From Streptomyces sp. NRRL F-5727 (GTDB lineage Bacteria; Actinomycetota; Actinomycetes; Streptomycetales; Streptomycetaceae), in assembly GCF_000719555.1 (NCBI RefSeq), contig NZ_JOGX01000001.1, positions 1-64,000 on the forward strand: a DNA stretch of 64,000 nucleotides, given 5' to 3'. How positions within the stretch are numbered: position 1 is the stretch's first letter; each line of letters begins with the position of its first letter. Shown piece by piece: positions 4,808 through 24,609 of this stretch. Position numbers and translations under genes: made by a program. Under the pieces are notes generated by a model. The model was given only the letters and a program-made list of their open reading frames with translations. It did no database searches and was not told the DNA's origin.

Positions 4808-5264
4808 TCACCGACAGCTTGTCGGTCTTCTTGTGGCAGAACCCCAGCGCGTGGCCCAGCGCGTGCACTGCGACCCGCCTGCGGCCCTCGTTTGACCCGT
4901 GCGACCTTCCGTCATCCAGATACGCCCGGTTGAACCACAGGTAGTCGGTGCCCGTGCTCGGGTCCCACCTGCCGTACACGAGGTTCCAGCCCTTGCCGGT
5001 GCTGCTGGTGTCCTTCCACTCCGGGTCGGCGCAGGACGTCGCATCGTCCGGCTTGATCTTCACCTGTCTGAGCGTCTTCGAACTTCGAGACCTCGTCCCA
5101 GGCCGACTCCTGCCGTCCACAGACGACCGGCCTCGTGAGTCGACTTCCCCTCCCAGGCATCTGTAGGGCTGCGCCGCGCCTGGAGCCGCGTGCACCGGGG
5201 CCGGAACAGCCAGCAGGACAGCGGCGGCCGAAGCCGCCGCGAGGGCTGAGGCGTTCGTCGTCAT
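4808..5264 (-). pseudogene. Secreted metalloprotease-like remnant
   Basis: The product starts MTTNASALAAASAAAVLLAV, a clear Sec signal peptide ending PVHAAPG. It continues with ATSCADPEWKDTSSTG and DYLWFNRAYLDD, and reaches VHALGHALGFCHK. The last motif resembles the zinc-binding HExxH of matrixin- or snapalysin-type proteases, but the catalytic Glu is replaced by Ala (HALGH). The signal peptide region and the HALGH region are in one frame only after a suspect join near 5100. Inactive in any case. Confidence 0.5.
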
Positions 5265-15713: not shown

Positions 15714-16730
15714 TCAGGCTCCGGCCGGCGTTGTGACCGGGGTCAGGGCGGGTACGGGCCGGATGTGGCCGACCGGCCGGCCGCCGCCCAGCAGCGGCTC
15801 CCCCTGGAACCCGGTGAGCCGACAGGGATCGACGCCGGCCCGGGCGAGGGCGGCCGCTGCGACAGGTACGCGGGCCCGGTCGGCTCCGTCGGCGATCTTC
15901 ACGGCGATGGCGCGGCCGTCCGGGAGGGCTGCGACTTCGACGCCCTCGGCGCCGTCCTTGGCCACCAGCCCGGGCACGGCCTCCATCAGAGCGGCGACGT
16001 CGCGGCCGGAACCGGATGCCATCTCGGGGTACGCGCGCATGGAGTTCGCGACGCGGGCCTCGGGCGTGCCGGGGGCGGCGGCGGTGATCCGGGCGGTGGC
16101 GCGGGCGAGGCCGTGCAGGGAGACGGAGAAGAGGGGGGCACCGCAGCCGTCGACGGTCGTCCGGGCGATGCGCTGTCCGGTGAGATCCTCGACGGTGGCG
16201 GCGATCGCCTGCTGGAGGGGGTGGGCGGGGTCGAGGTAGTCGTGCAGGCTCCAGCCGTTGATCCGGCAGGTGGAGAGCATGGCCGCGTGCTTGGCGGAGC
16301 AGTTGTGGGCCAGGCGGTCGGGCTCGCGGCCCGCACGTACCCAGGCGTCCCGGGCGGCTGGGCCGTAGGGCATGTCTATGGCGTTTCGAAGGTCGTCCTC
16401 GGAGAGGCCGGCGAGTGCGAGGATGCTCCGGGCGCCGTCGAGATGGCGTTCCTCGCCGGAATGGCTGGAGGCGGCGAGGGAGAGAAGGCCGTCGTCGAGC
16501 GGGAGGCCCGCGCGCACCATGGCGACGGCCTGGACGGGCTTGAGTGCCGAGCGCGGGTAGAACGCGGCCTCGATGTCGCCGAGCTGGAGCCGGACCCGGC
16601 CCTCGGCGTCGAGGACGACGACCGAGCCGTAGTGGATTCCCTCGACGACGCCACCGCGGACGAGGTGGGCGACGGGAGCATGCAGGGGTTCACGGACGAC
16701 GGGTGCGTCCGTGAGGGTGTCGCTGTGCAT
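15714..16730 (-). CDS. L-asparaginase, asparaginase II (Rhizobium etli-type) family
   Basis: A 338-residue protein of the asparaginase-II family, which is distinct from E. coli AnsA/AnsB. It hydrolyses L-asparagine to aspartate and ammonia. Family motifs are visible: SGVVEGIH-like GGVVEGIHYGSVVVLD, YPRSALKPVQAVAMV near 60-75, AASSHSGEERHL, HNCSAKHAAML and VDGCGAPLFSVSL. The start at 16730 (MHSDTLTD) was chosen because AAGAGG lies just upstream. No signal peptide is seen, so it is cytosolic. It feeds aspartase, whose gene follows directly. Confidence 0.9.
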   Translation of the reverse strand: MHSDTLTDAPVVREPLHAPVAHLVRGGVVEGIHYGSVVVLDAEGRVRLQLGDIEAAFYPRSALKPVQAVAMVRAGLPLDDGLLSLAASSHSGEERHLDGARSILALAGLSEDDLRNAIDMPYGPAARDAWVRAGREPDRLAHNCSAKHAAMLSTCRINGWSLHDYLDPAHPLQQAIAATVEDLTGQRIARTTVDGCGAPLFSVSLHGLARATARITAAAPGTPEARVANSMRAYPEMASGSGRDVAALMEAVPGLVAKDGAEGVEVAALPDGRAIAVKIADGADRARVPVAAAALARAGVDPCRLTGFQGEPLLGGGRPVGHIRPVPALTPVTTPAGA

Positions 16731-16780
16731 GGGTGCCTCTTGGTCGAACGAACGTGCCGGGCGGCGGGACGTCACGCCGG

Positions 16781-16925
16781 TTACGCGTCGGTCTTGGGTG
16801 CGGTGGGGGCGAGCGGGCCGTCGGCACCGAGGACACAGCCCGTGACGATGGCTCCGCCGACGGAGATCATGCTGGCGTGCCGGGGCCTGAGCGACGTGCT
16901 GCGGCCGGTGCCTCCCCCATCGACA
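16781..16925 (-). pseudogene. Amino-acid permease remnant
   Basis: The minus-strand frame reads SLRPRHASMISVGGAIVTG then CVLGADGPLAPTAPKTDA and a stop. The first half resembles the N-terminus of AAP/APC-type permeases (family: LKxRHxTMIxxGGxIGxGLF). The last dozen residues look like a permease tail, suggesting the twelve-helix middle was deleted. Its place between the regulator and the asparaginase fits an AnsP-like asparagine transporter. The family assignment is an inference from about 25 residues. Confidence 0.4.
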
Positions 16926-16968
16926 TGAGGGCGCGAGGTACGCGACTCGTCCCCGAGGTCTTGGTCTC

Positions 16969-17697
16969 TCACGCCTCTGGCCCGCCTTCCGTGGGGCTGC
17001 TCGCGCGAGGAGAGCGCACGATGTCGGTGAGCGAGGTCTCGACGCGGTCGAGGTGGTGGCTCATCGCCTCGACCGCGTCGTGCTCGGAGCCGTCGATCAG
17101 CGCCTCGACGATCGACCGGTGCTCACGGTTGGACTGTTCACGCCGGTCGCCCAGCTGGCTGAGGAAGGTCGACTGACGCGCCAGGGCGTCCCGGATCTCC
17201 TCGATCACCCGGCGAAACGCCGGGTTCTGGGCGGCTTCGGCCACGGCCAGGTGGAAGAGGGTGTCCATCGCGACCCATGCGGTGGTGTCCGTCTCCCGTT
17301 CCATGCGGTCGAGCAGATGGGCCAGGTGGTCGAGGTTCTCCGGGGTGCGGCGCAGCGCCGCGTACCCGGCGACCGGGATCTCGACGTGACGGCGGACCTC
17401 CAGCAGGTCACTGGCTGCGTAGTCGCCGAAGGTGGGGTCCTCGACGGTGCTCGCGACCACAAAGGTGCCCTTGCCGGTCTTCGAGGCCGTCAGTCCCATG
17501 GTCTGCAGGGCGCGCAGGGCCTCCCGCAGGACCGGACGGGACACCTCGAGGGTGCGGCAGAGCTCCGCCTCGGAGGGGAGCTTGTCGCCGATGGCGTACT
17601 CGCCGCGCTCGATGGCGCCGCGAAGGTGGGTGAGTACCGCTTCCATGGCGCTCACACGCCGCAGACTCCCACCTGTCTGGCTGTCTGACAGGTTCAC
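16969..17697 (-). CDS. GntR-family regulator, FadR/FCD subfamily
   Basis: A 242-residue regulator. The GTG at 17697 was chosen because GGAGG lies 8 bases upstream. The winged helix spans about residues 20-85 (LRGAIERGEYAIGDKLPSEA, then VSRPVLREALRALQTMGL and GKGTFV). A C-terminal helical FCD domain follows, with histidines (VAMDTLFHLAVAEAAQNP and NREHRSIVEAL) suited to a metal and carboxylate ligand. The neighbouring asparaginase and aspartase suggest it senses aspartate, asparagine or a C4-dicarboxylate. A palindrome over its own first codons points to autoregulation. Confidence 0.9.
   Translation of the reverse strand: MNLSDSQTGGSLRRVSAMEAVLTHLRGAIERGEYAIGDKLPSEAELCRTLEVSRPVLREALRALQTMGLTASKTGKGTFVVASTVEDPTFGDYAASDLLEVRRHVEIPVAGYAALRRTPENLDHLAHLLDRMERETDTTAWVAMDTLFHLAVAEAAQNPAFRRVIEEIRDALARQSTFLSQLGDRREQSNREHRSIVEALIDGSEHDAVEAMSHHLDRVETSLTDIVRSPRASSPTEGGPEA
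17671..17693. promoter_or_regulatory. FadR-type operator overlapping the start of the regulator gene
   Basis: CTGTCTGACAG at 17681-17691 is a perfect palindrome of the GTCNGAC type bound by FadR/FCD regulators. It is nested in a wider ACCTGTC-N9-GACAGGT inverted repeat (17671-17677 and 17687-17693). It covers codons 3 to 9 of the regulator gene, a position suited to self-repression. Confidence 0.55.
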
Positions 17698-17859
17698 CCT
17701 GCGATCCTCCAGGCTGCGGAACCGGCATGTCAAGCGCGGGGAGCACGGTCTCAGGATCCGTGCCCGGTGCAGTCGGCACGCACGTCGCGCGCACGCCCCC
17801 ACCTTCAGAAACTCCGTACGTGTCCCCGCCGACCGCCGACCGCCGAGTGGACCGTCACG

Positions 17860-18000
17860 CGGTTCGGCCGTGGCTTCGACGGGGATATCCCGGCCCACCG
17901 CCCACACGTGGGTCTGCCGCCGGCGAGCCGAGGGCGACGCGAGCCTCCACGACCGCTCGAGCAGACCCCGCACCCCACCGCATCGCACAACAGTGACCGT
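17860..18000 (+). pseudogene. IS481-family transposase, second N-terminal remnant
   Basis: The frame gives STGISRPTAHTWVCRRRAEG then DASLHDRSSRPRTPPHRT, matching residues about 33-70 of the IS481 piece at 13664 (ETGISRSTAHAWVRRRQGEG). Nothing of the catalytic domain is present. The two relics bracket the asparaginase-aspartase-regulator cluster in the same orientation. Confidence 0.6.
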
Positions 18001-18229
18001 CGCCCCCGGGTCTGCCGATTGCGTTCCGATCGCAGCGACGCCCTCGACCGCCTCGCGCAGCGCCGCGAGGTCGGCGACGATCACGTCCGGCGCGGCGGGC
18101 ACATGATGGTCCCCCCTGTACTGCTACGAGCTCCGCCTCCTGGACATCGCCCCCGGCGGCGGCCATCGACGAGGGGCCGCTTCCAACACGGTCAGGTCAG
18201 GTGCGAGGACCGCGCTCGGTCGGCGACTC

Positions 18230-19119: not shown

Positions 19120-19560
19120 GGACCGTACCTCTGAAAGTAGTTCTTCTGGTTCGGGCCAGGGTCGATCGAGGGGCCGAGCCGCTGTACTGCGCCGTTCGGC
19201 CGGATCCAGATCTGGCATGCACGCACTTGGCCGGAAGGGTTCGCTCGTGCGGGCGGTGCGGCTGTCGGTAGAGCCCGGCGTCGAGCCGTACTCCGTCGCG
19301 GACGTGCCGTGGGGGAACGCGGAGGTGGTCGTGTTCGCGACGCTGGGAGGCGGCGGCCGGCTGTCGTTCCTGGAGGGGGGCAGGTCCACGCGCCAGACCA
19401 TTCCGTACTCCTGCAGGGTCCGGCCCTTGGCTTGGGGCAGCGGGTCGGCCCGCGCCCAGCCGGACGCCGTCCTGAGCGTGCCTCTGCGGGGGCCAAACGT
19501 GTCCGTGCGCGGCCTTGAACGCGGCGGGCGCGTCGAGGAGAAGCCAGGCGGCAGGTCTAC
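19120..19560 (-). pseudogene. Helicase-associated (HA) domain fragments
   Basis: Two minus-strand stretches resemble HA repeats: AAFKAAHGHVWPPQRHAQDG then VRLGAG, and REHDHLRVPPRHVRDGVRLD followed by GLYRQPHRPHERTLPAK. The A-x-x-H-G-H-x-x-V-P ... D-G-V-R-L-G-x-W-L pattern is diagnostic of that repeat. Frames change between and within them. This is a second relic of the type at 12190-13058, with no motor domain. Confidence 0.55.
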
Positions 19561-19749
19561 GCGGTGATCCGCTTCGGTCCGCCACGCCCGAGGGACAGCC
19601 GCCCACTCCGGACGACGTGATGGCGGGCGGCTTCCGCGCACCGCTGTCAAGCCGTCACGGCCGTACGCCGACTCGCCGACTGGGCGGTCCGGGTGCTCGC
19701 TTTCCCCGCGCGGATGTGGCCTGCCCGGGATGTCGTTTACGGTAGTGCC

Positions 19750-19773
19750 ATGTCTACGCCCCGAGTTTCCTAG
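19750..19773 (+). CDS. Seven-residue leader peptide upstream of the ABC-F gene
   Basis: ATG TCT ACG CCC CGA GTT TCC TAG encodes MSTPRVS. A TACGGT -10-like hexamer lies 7 bases upstream, so the leader mRNA would begin at or next to the ATG. The ORF stops 4 bases before an intrinsic terminator. This is the layout of ribosome-mediated attenuation known for several antibiotic-resistance ABC-F, Erm and efflux genes. Translation is inferred. Confidence 0.6.
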   Translation: MSTPRVS

Positions 19774-19776
19774 CTG

Positions 19777-19817
19777 AGGACCCGCTTCCACGCCAGAAGT
19801 GTGTCCTTTTGCTTTTT
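19777..19817 (+). terminator. Intrinsic attenuator in front of the ABC-F gene
   Basis: The stem is AGGAC (19777-19781) plus CGCTTC (19783-19788) pairing with GAAGTG (19796-19801) plus GTCCT (19803-19807), with a single C/T mismatch and loop CACGCCA. The tail TTTTGCTTTTT follows at once. A run of Ts is rare in this genome. An alternative hairpin pairs TCCT (19768-19771, at the end of the leader ORF) with AGGA (19777-19780) and would pre-empt the terminator. The ribosome-binding site GGAG of the ABC-F gene begins right after the T-run. Confidence 0.7.
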
Positions 19818-19831
19818 CGGAGCGTAACCCA

Positions 19832-21436
19832 ATGATCACTGTTCGTGATGTCCATGTGCGTGCAGGTGCCCGCCTGCTGCTCTCGGACCTTTCCTTTACC
19901 GTCTCCGCCGGCGACCGTATCGGCCTGGTCGGCCCTAACGGTGCGGGGAAGACCACCTTGATGACCGCCCTGGCCGGACGGTCCAAGCCCGCTGCAGGGA
20001 CGATCGTTCATACCGGCCCGGTCGGGTTCCTCGCGCAGGACTCCCGCGGCGCCGACCCCGCGGTCACGGTGCGCGACCGTATCCTGTCCGCTCGCGCCCT
20101 GGATGCGGCGCTGCGTCGTCTGCGGGCGGCTGAGACCGCGATGGCCGAGGCTGGTGTCCCCGGCGCCCTGGAGCGGGCGATGGGTGCCTATGCCCGGGCG
20201 GAGGCGGCCTTCCAGGCCGGAGGCGGATACGCGGCCGAAGCCGAGGCCGCCCGTGTCGCGGCCGGTCTGGGCCTGCCCGAACGGGTGATGGCCGAGCTGG
20301 TCGGCAACCTCTCGGGCGGGCAGAAGCGCCGCGTGGAACTGGCTCGGATCCTGTTCGCCGGGGACGACGGAGTGCTGCTGCTGGACGAGCCGACCAACCA
20401 TCTGGACGCCGACTCGCTCACCTGGCTGCGCACCTTCCTGCGGGAGTACCGGGGCGGCCTGGTGGTGATCAGCCATGACACTGCCCTGCTCGCCGATGTC
20501 GTGAACCGGGTCTTCCACCTGGATGCCACCCGGGCGGCGATCGATGTTCACAACACCGGCTGGACGGACTATCTGGCCCAGCGGGAAGCGGACCAGCGCC
20601 GGCGGGAGCGGGAGCGTGCCAACGCCGAGCGCAAGGCCGCCGCCCTGCACGCGCAGGCGGAGAAGATCAAGGCCCGCTCGGCCACCGCGGTCACCGCCCG
20701 CAGCATGGCCCGGCGCGCGCAGCGCATGCTGGCCGACCTGGAGCCGGTCCGCCGTACGGAGAAGACTGCCAGGATCCGGCTGCCCGAGCCGCTGCCGTGC
20801 GGCCGGATGCCGCTGGGCGCCGTCAGCCTTTCCAAGTCCTACAACGGCCACCGCGTGCTCGACGGTGTGGACCTGGCGGTGGACCGGGGCAGCCGTCTCG
20901 TGGTCCTGGGCCTCAACGGCGCGGGTAAGACCACGTTGCTGCGGCTGCTCGCCGGTGCAGAGCGGCCTGATTCCGGGAGGGTCGTGCATGGGCACGGGCT
21001 GCGGCTGGGCTACTTCGCCCAGGAGCACGACACGCTCGCTCCCGGGCGCACCGTCCTGGAGAACCTGCTGGATGCCGCACCGCACCTGACGGACGGCGAG
21101 GCACGCCGGGTGCTCGGGTCGTTCCTGTTCAGCGGGGACGACGCGGACAAGAGCGCCGGGGTGCTCTCCGGCGGCGAGAAGACCCGCCTGGCACTGGCCG
21201 GCCTGGTCCACTCCGGTGCGAACGTGCTGCTGATGGACGAGCCGACCAACAACCTCGACCCCGTCTCCCGCACCGAGGTCCTTGCGGCCGTCGACTCCTA
21301 CCCCGGAGCGATCGTCATGGTCACCCACGACGAGGGCGCCATCGACGCCCTCCGCCCCGACCGCGTCCTGCTCCTGCCGGACGCGGACGAGGACCTGTGG
21401 AGCGAGGACTACCGCGACCTGGTCGCCCTCGCCTGA
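19832..21436 (+). CDS. ABC-F family ATPase, probable ribosome-protection factor
   Basis: A 534-residue soluble twin-ATPase protein without membrane segments. Domain 1 has Walker A GPNGAGKTT (34-42), signature LSGGQ (160-164) and Walker B LLLDEPTNHLD (182-192). A charged linker of about 245-315 (READQRRRERERANAERKAA) corresponds to the P-site tRNA interaction motif. Domain 2 has GLNGAGKTT (360-368), LSGGEKTRLAL and LLMDEPTNNLD. Length and layout match Streptomyces resistance ABC-Fs of the TlrC/SrmB/CarA type, which remove macrolide-, lincosamide- or streptogramin-type drugs from the ribosome. The leader peptide and attenuator support drug-inducible expression. No biosynthetic genes lie nearby. 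Confidence 0.9.
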   Translation: MITVRDVHVRAGARLLLSDLSFTVSAGDRIGLVGPNGAGKTTLMTALAGRSKPAAGTIVHTGPVGFLAQDSRGADPAVTVRDRILSARALDAALRRLRAAETAMAEAGVPGALERAMGAYARAEAAFQAGGGYAAEAEAARVAAGLGLPERVMAELVGNLSGGQKRRVELARILFAGDDGVLLLDEPTNHLDADSLTWLRTFLREYRGGLVVISHDTALLADVVNRVFHLDATRAAIDVHNTGWTDYLAQREADQRRRERERANAERKAAALHAQAEKIKARSATAVTARSMARRAQRMLADLEPVRRTEKTARIRLPEPLPCGRMPLGAVSLSKSYNGHRVLDGVDLAVDRGSRLVVLGLNGAGKTTLLRLLAGAERPDSGRVVHGHGLRLGYFAQEHDTLAPGRTVLENLLDAAPHLTDGEARRVLGSFLFSGDDADKSAGVLSGGEKTRLALAGLVHSGANVLLMDEPTNNLDPVSRTEVLAAVDSYPGAIVMVTHDEGAIDALRPDRVLLLPDADEDLWSEDYRDLVALA

Positions 21437-23670: not shown

Positions 23671-24609
23671 GTGGGCATGGGGCGGGGTGATCTGATCGAT
23701 GCTGAGTGGGAACGGCTGCGGCCGTTCCTGCCGGTGAACAACGGGCGTTGTGGCAGGTGGCGGGATCACCGGCAGGTGATCGACGGGATCCTGCACCGGG
23801 TGCGGACCGGGGTGCAGTGGCGTGACTGCCCGAACGGTTCGGGCCGTGGAAGACCGTCTACGAACGCCATCGCCTGTGGTCGGCCGACGGCACCTGGAAG
23901 CGTCTGCTCCAGCAGGTCCAGGCCGCGGCCGACGCCGCAGGCGAGATCGACTGGGACATCTCGGTCGACTCCACCATTGTCCGCGCGCATCAGCATGCAG
24001 CCGGCGCCCGCACCGACCCGCCGCCGGCCCCAGGACAAAAGGGGGCCGCAGGGGTGGAACACCAGGACGAGACGCCGTGGCAGAGTCTCGTCGCCCGTCT
24101 GGTGGAGGTGGTGCGGGAGGTGAGGGCCTGGGCCGCTCGCGGGGCGGGTTCACCAGCAAGCTCCACCTGAGCGCGGACGGGCGTTGCCGCCCGCTGTCCC
24201 TGGTCGTCACACCCGGTCAGCGGGCGGACTGCACCCAGTTCACGCCGGTCCTGGAGAAAATCCGGGTGCCCAGATCTGGCCTGGGCAGGCCGCGCAAGAA
24301 GCCCGACAGCCTCGCGGCCGACAGGGCCTACAGCAACGGACCGATCCGCGAGTACCTGCGACGGCGGGGCATCCGCCACACCATCCCGGAGAGAAGACCA
24401 ACAGCCAGGCGGCTCGCCTGCGTAAAGGCGCCCGTGGCGGACGGCCGCCCGGCTTCGACGAGGACCGCTACGAGAAACGCAACACCGTCGATCGGGCGAT
24501 CAACCGCCTGAAACAGTCTCGGGCAGTCGCCACCCGCTACGACAAGCGCGGCTACGTCTTCCTCGGCACTGCCACCGCCGCGGCCGTCACGATCTGGCTT
24601 CGGACATGA
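23671..24609 (+). pseudogene. IS5-family DDE transposase, frameshifted
   Basis: The protein assembles across frames as DLIDAEWERLRPFLPVNNGR, VIDGILHRVRTGVQWRD, TVYERHRLWSADGTWKRLLQ, WDISVDSTIVRAHQHAAGAR, GLGRSRGGFTSKLHLSADGR, SLAADRAYSNGPIREYLRRR and FDEDRYEKRNTVDRAINRLK. The catalytic Asp of SVDSTIV, the second Asp of AADRAY and the Glu-equivalent region are all visible. Frame changes near 23840, 24060-24120 and 24400 break it. One of them could be a programmed shift, but three are hard to explain that way. Confidence 0.75.

Follow-up and report, generated by a model that had tools for sequence, protein, structure and literature searches.

A seven-codon open reading frame that ends just upstream of an ABC-F gene raises the question of how the one might control the other. 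Within the 64,000-nucleotide stretch of Streptomyces DNA analyzed here (the window), which comes from a 7.9 Mb genome, both the leader and the ABC-F gene can be read directly from the sequence (Table 1). An earlier note on this DNA had described the ORF MSTPRVS, a 3-base gap, an 11-pair stem, a T-run, and an adjoining ABC-F ribosome-binding site, and had assembled them into a terminator and a competing antiterminator. All of these parts are present: the stem pairs 19777-19788 with 19796-19807 (11 pairs, one C·U mismatch, and a 7-nt loop) and begins 3 bases past the stop codon of the upstream ORF (uORF). We assemble them differently and propose, with a probability of roughly 0.7, translational attenuation in which the codons of the uORF themselves serve as the anti-Shine–Dalgarno (anti-SD) strand, in Streptomyces and in some related soil bacteria. 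The computed basis of this reading consists of the parts, their conservation, their pairing, two-sided base changes, and an SD that is cheaper to open when the leader is masked.

Table 1 Features of the leader and of the ABC-F gene in window coordinates
Feature	Position	Strand	Basis and remarks
-10 element TACGGT	19738..19743	+	Direct reading; predicted transcription start is the A of the uORF ATG
Leaderless (predicted) uORF MSTPRVS, stop TAG	19750..19773	+	Direct reading and conservation
P1 5' arm, uORF codons 3-6, anti-SD	19755..19765	+	Minimum-energy fold and pair counts
P2 5' arm AGC, overlapping the uORF stop codon	19772..19774	+	Fold and pair counts; pairs with GCU 19811-19813
P3 inner hairpin	19776..19808	+	Fold and pair counts; 19776-19781 with 19803-19808
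T-rich stretch TTTTGCTTTTT (4 T, GC, 5 T)	19807..19817	+	Direct reading; possible terminator tail in the window's clade
P1 3' arm, contains ABC-F SD GGAG (19819-19822)	19816..19826	+	Fold and pair counts
ABC-F ATPase, 534 aa, distinct subfamily	19832..21436	+	Homology; start ATG 19832

A start at GTG 19799, as given in a mechanical ORF list, was rejected for the ABC-F gene because homology places the start at 19832. The upstream neighbors on the minus strand encode L-asparaginase II and a GntR/FCD regulator (15714-18102), and a downstream ORF at 23671-24120 resembles an IS4/5-family transposase (DUF4096).

Predicted pairing of leader codons with the ABC-F SD

The 82-nt leader folds at -31.6 kcal/mol, compared with -16.7 ± 2.8 kcal/mol for shuffled sequences (z -5.3; 0/200 as low), and its minimum-energy fold is one long hairpin with P1 outermost, followed by P2 and then P3. 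P1 pairs codons 3-6 of the uORF with the SD of the ABC-F gene around a single C·A mismatch, and in this computed structure the SD is predicted to be sequestered. P3, which carries an apical extension (19783-19788 with 19796-19801), corresponds to the terminator stem of the earlier note; the best-conserved element is P1 rather than this proposed terminator. A loop segment, CCGCUUCC, was considered as a second SD partner and dropped, as visual comparison of the leaders showed no conservation of it. Rfam gave no match to 19500-20000 at E values up to 1.

Across 91 distinct leaders, the 17 pairs of the structure are 91.6% paired, and sliding the partner by 1-3 columns lowers the pairing to 31-43%. 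Two-sided changes number 51, compared with 13.8 in shuffles (0/500 as high, with related sequences counted separately), and P1, not the inner hairpin, is the helix with the largest number of them. The strongest positions in these counts are the Arg5 wobble base and base 1 of codon 6. At Arg5, the wobble base and its SD-side partner form A-U in 49 leaders, G-C in 17, C-G in 7, U-A in 4, and G-U in 1, the pair being broken in the other 13/91; at codon 6, the first base and its partner form A-U in 66, G-C in 14, and G-U in 9, with 2 others, so that the alternation of Ile and Val in the peptide tracks the flank of the SD. Correcting these counts for the tree (on starred branches) leaves only four informative pairs at each position: at Arg5, two follow, none goes against, and two show no difference; at codon 6, about two follow and one goes against. 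P2 is paired in 86.8% of cells with no two-sided change, and P2 and P3 each lack some pairs in 6-25% of leaders. The final pair counts are based on an alignment fitted to the model structure, MAFFT having misaligned a GGACAC group in P3; the unfitted alignment yields the same pairing picture.

To represent a ribosome on the AUG, we blocked 16 nucleotides of the leader (masking) and computed the energy needed to open the SD. Its mean over the 91 leaders is 11.4 kcal/mol in the free RNA and 4.6 kcal/mol in the masked RNA; for the window leader, the corresponding values are 13.2 and 2.6 kcal/mol. The gain upon masking exceeds 3 kcal/mol in 89/91 leaders, compared with 6/273 shuffled controls. By a simpler measure, the mean unpaired probability of GGAG, masking brings no increase: the value is 0.25 in the free RNA, 0.19-0.23 in the masked RNA, and 0.13 in leader-shuffled controls. 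The reason is that weak local pairs form in place of P1, and the support therefore rests on the opening-energy result. At the 5' end, the first five RNA bases are unpaired in 8/11 unmasked folds.

In the mechanism that we propose, transcription would start with the first A of the uORF or a base beside it, and a ribosome would begin on the leaderless AUG. As long as no ribosome is held there, codons 3-6 of the uORF (ACGCCCCGAG) would be paired with the ribosome-binding site of the ABC-F gene (UUCGGAGCGU), and the inner helices AGC:GCU and GGAC:GUCC would join the two arms, thereby hiding the ABC-F start. If a ribosome-binding drug or some other block arrested a ribosome within the seven codons, that ribosome would cover the 5' arm, allowing the outer helix to open and the ABC-F protein to be translated. 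Induction may thus come, in line with the earlier note, from a drug that stalls ribosomes on MSTPRVS. If this reading is right, the leader would be a minimal attenuator: within about 82 nt, a single stretch would double as start site, reading frame, and anti-SD, and leaderless initiation would serve sensing, offering a direct route to ask how leaderless 70S initiation behaves under ribosome inhibitors in Streptomyces.

The translational attenuators of cat-86/cmlA and ermC combine a short uORF with a downstream SD held in a hairpin, from which a stalled ribosome frees the SD; in cat-86, the ribosome stalled on the leader reaches the left arm of the hairpin. The likeness of the window leader to these systems lies in the short uORF and the predicted sequestration of the downstream SD, its release by a stalled ribosome being proposed here. 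The differences are that the uORF is predicted to be leaderless, that its own codons 3-6 form the putative anti-SD, and that the controlled gene encodes an ABC-F protein.

Transcription termination as an alternative

The inner hairpin could instead act on transcription. In this alternative, which we judge unlikely, the hairpin and the T-run form an intrinsic terminator, a stalled ribosome causes the end of the leader to pair with the 5' arm, thereby preventing termination, and pairing with the SD is secondary. ABC-F genes of other bacteria use such a mechanism: according to PMC10314930 and PMC10201436, MsrD, VmlR, and CplR are controlled by terminator attenuators that, like the window leader, comprise a uORF, a hairpin, and a downstream ABC-F gene, and the terminator stem of cplR also sequesters the SD. 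In the window itself, the tail after the hairpin contains 6 T in 8 positions. A scan for terminator-like sites found 4 in 10 kb, two of them in the leader, compared with 2.6 ± 2.0 in shuffles, which is unremarkable on its own, and conservation is therefore needed to decide.

In contrast to the MsrD, VmlR, and CplR leaders, the U-tract after the hairpin is not conserved across orthologues, with a run of at least 4 T between P3 and the SD in only 25/91 leaders and a run of 5 in 10/91. Divergent leaders, e.g., L108, pair the SD strongly without a T-run, and the finding that P1 has more two-sided changes than the inner hairpin also argues against a terminator as the conserved function. However, the 27 leaders with the window's type of apical stem have a stronger inner hairpin than the other 64 (-15.5 vs. 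-10.5 kcal/mol) and more often carry at least 5 T in 8 (16/27 vs. 18/64), and termination may thus contribute in leaders of this type. The competing hairpin on which the switch of the earlier note depended does exist in the window, where UCCU 19768-19771 can pair with AGGA 19777-19780, but comprises 4 bp; a run of at least 4 such pairs is found in 69/91 leaders, a mild enrichment over about 42% of shuffles that favors the transcriptional alternative. A terminator–antiterminator switch is not supported as the general mechanism. Termination may be a layer added in the window's clade rather than the mechanism of the family.

Conservation of the leader and of its predicted promoter

A protein search of 150 Streptomyces genomes, which is a less biased test of conservation than a search by pattern, recovered the leader in 28/28 window-type orthologues with a 5' end (at least 68% identity, among the matches listed); a further orthologue, in G141, is a fragment without a 5' end and lies outside this count. 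The apparently leaderless uORF that the earlier note had described before the ABC-F gene is thus real and conserved, and an RNA structure is tied to it. In a survey of 100 related genomes, the leader accompanies 20/20 orthologues with at least 70% identity and a 5' end (L001-L019, L024), shorter fragments without a 5' end being left unscored. Two leaders carry short duplications within the attenuator: L015 has a second block resembling a ribosome-binding site, and L063 has a repeated GTGTGTC.

A degenerate leader pattern has a single match in each of 69/392 Streptomyces genomes, and the reversed pattern, used as a control, matches 0/392. This pattern, the source of most of the 72 seed leaders, fixes the peptide, and its matches therefore cannot prove that the peptide is conserved. 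Of the 28 genomes from the protein search, 27 are also pattern matches, and the leader in the 28th (G108, L234) reads MPTPRVS. On the ABC-F tree, the third base of Ser2 changed at least 20 times and its first two bases never, the third base of Arg5 changed at least 7 times, and the uORF stop is always TAG (70 leaders, mostly pattern-found, in which the pattern itself fixes the constant bases, i.e., the first two bases of Ser2 and the stop). One leader change that alters Pro4 could close the C·A mismatch of P1, a hint to be read with the fact that the pattern fixes this base. We take the uORF to be translated, with these codon-level patterns in mind.

A covariance model built from the 72 leaders gave 22 matches in 394 genomes of the class, 21 of them immediately preceding the start of an ABC-F gene; the 22nd (L110) is weak and has no ABC-F start within its locus. 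Outside the genus, the leaders found with the model read MSTPRIS, MSLPRIS, MALPRIS, MATPRTS, MSNSRIY, and MSESRIY, and that of Actinomadura macrotermitis reads MASPRIS; the leader thus recurs in other families. The 80 loci from a scan of named genomes are mostly remote ABC-F relatives, and among the 23 of these and 10 earlier loci that were run, 4/33 match the model. A quick tree was built from 42 selected ABC-F proteins, and in it a single branch (SH-aLRT 100, no bootstrap) separates off all 23 proteins that have the leader.

In 91/91 leaders, the A of the ATG lies at +7 (52 leaders) or +8 (39 leaders) counted from the last base of a TANNNT -10 element (raw count), and the uORF is therefore predicted to be leaderless; in the window, the ATG at 19750 has its A 7 nt past the element. 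In published WblC promoters, the distance from the -10 element to the transcription start is likewise 7 or 8 bp, and the S. coelicolor WblC motif consists of GAAAWY, a 3 bp gap, the -35 element, a 16-19 bp spacer, and TANNNT (PMC7157823). A WblC-type box with 5 or 6 of 6 letters precedes 75/91 leaders, compared with 47/1820 shuffles (gaps of 2-4 bp allowed). These 75 leaders have in common with WblC/WhiB7 promoters, as described in PMC7157823, the GAAAWY box, TANNNT, and the start after 7-8 bp, all as predicted sites, and in most orthologues the box would add a transcriptional layer to the proposed attenuation. The window's own copy (19700-19737) differs from these promoters in having only 1/6 letters of the box, and WblC control thus looks lost there. 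Several near relatives (L054, L067, L088, L134, and L008) likewise have a low WblC-box score.

The promoter also bears on a second alternative, in which the leader senses no drug and the leaderless uORF instead couples the ABC-F gene to the state of translation (70S leaderless initiation, starvation, or ribosome shortage) through the same unmasking. Such a device would meet the same structure tests, and the leader contains no published arrest motif among those tested for. However, the enrichment of the WblC-type box together with an ABC-F partner points to ribosome-drug stress, as does the second residue, which is Ser or Ala in 91/92 leaders, although the pattern through which the majority of these leaders were collected itself requires Ser; on balance, we regard an attenuator blind to drugs as quite improbable.

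The ABC-F protein and related leaders

The ABC-F protein presumably protects the ribosome. Its best named matches include S. lydicus and S. xanthochromogenes proteins at 83% identity. The protein falls below the cut-off of the general NCBIfam model for ribosomal-protection ABC-F proteins, NF000355 (344.9 vs. 380 bits), and scores 278.8 against NF000171 (cut-off 800). A Mycobacterium relative (L130) is 59% identical to the query ABC-F, and its termini match the residues encoded by the cloning primers of MAB_2736c, the counterpart of OcrA (Rv1473), as read from the primers in PMC13041422; the window-type clade is separate from it in the quick tree. According to the same source, cells become more sensitive to linezolid, chloramphenicol, and macrolides when MAB_2736c is knocked down, and linezolid and chloramphenicol are also the drugs against which OcrA is said to act. 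By analogy, this effect of the mycobacterial relatives on linezolid and chloramphenicol hints at an inducer class but does not establish one. Stalling by chloramphenicol and linezolid is reported to be best with Ala as the penultimate residue and less with Ser or Thr (PMC8987054); as the Ser or Ala at position 2 of our leaders is mostly pattern-ascertained, the inducer is a guess. If the reading is right, an uncharacterised ABC-F subfamily would be tied to a predicted and testable class of inducers.

Attenuators with a uORF before an ABC-F gene have been described in the same genus, for tiaA (MVGDDDISG) and are5sc (MLV) of S. coelicolor (PMC12421871), where regulation of tiaA is apparently translational, as we propose for the window leader. 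The tiaA and are5sc 5' UTRs are given in that source as 194 and 232 bp, with uORFs that have ribosome-binding sites; the window leader, compared here by its layout, has 82 nt, apparently no 5' UTR, and a different peptide. Among the open-licence papers searched, the attenuator is named in no title or opening of an abstract, and the peptides MSTPRIS, MSTPRVS, and MSTPRMS are absent.

At least 149/150 genomes of the genus hold one or more members of the family at E values up to 1e-100. A core paralogue of about 62% identity is preceded by a different uORF, also predicted to be leaderless, in 20/20 loci of the genus that were examined (L191-L210). This uORF mostly reads MA[IFN]L[LP][AV]H, with variants including MAPLLAH, MAFLLLH, and MANLLAD, and in the window genome it reads MDILPWDILPWVH (L191, G000:C2:199027-199400). 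Masking of 16 nt gains more than 3 kcal/mol in 12/20 of these loci (raw count). At other loci, the same masking gains 6.9 kcal/mol (L020), 5.7 (L022), about 2 (L115 and L029), and between -1.5 and 2 (L116, L117, and L223). Two of the latter, in Nonomuraea and Microtetraspora (L116, L117; upstream of position 5001), carry predicted leaderless uORFs of five codons, MHTPD and MPTPD, with 7-8 nt of perfect complementarity to the SD (read by eye), and masking brings no gain for the Nonomuraea leader and about 2 kcal/mol for that of Microtetraspora. At some loci examined in other genomes, no uORF was seen before the ABC-F gene.

These leaders invite a broader and more tentative proposal, to which we assign somewhat less than an even chance: a general actinobacterial design in which the codons of a leaderless uORF serve as anti-SD for the gene that follows, many such uORFs stand behind WblC-type promoters, and residue 2 (Ser/Ala) is tuned to arrest of the chloramphenicol or oxazolidinone type, so that drug stress would come into play twice on the way to a ribosome-protection factor, at the promoter and at the uORF. 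At several loci in other genomes, the main ABC-F gene looks leaderless in its own right, as judged by script for L218, L219, and L222 and by eye for L021, L025-L028, and L030.
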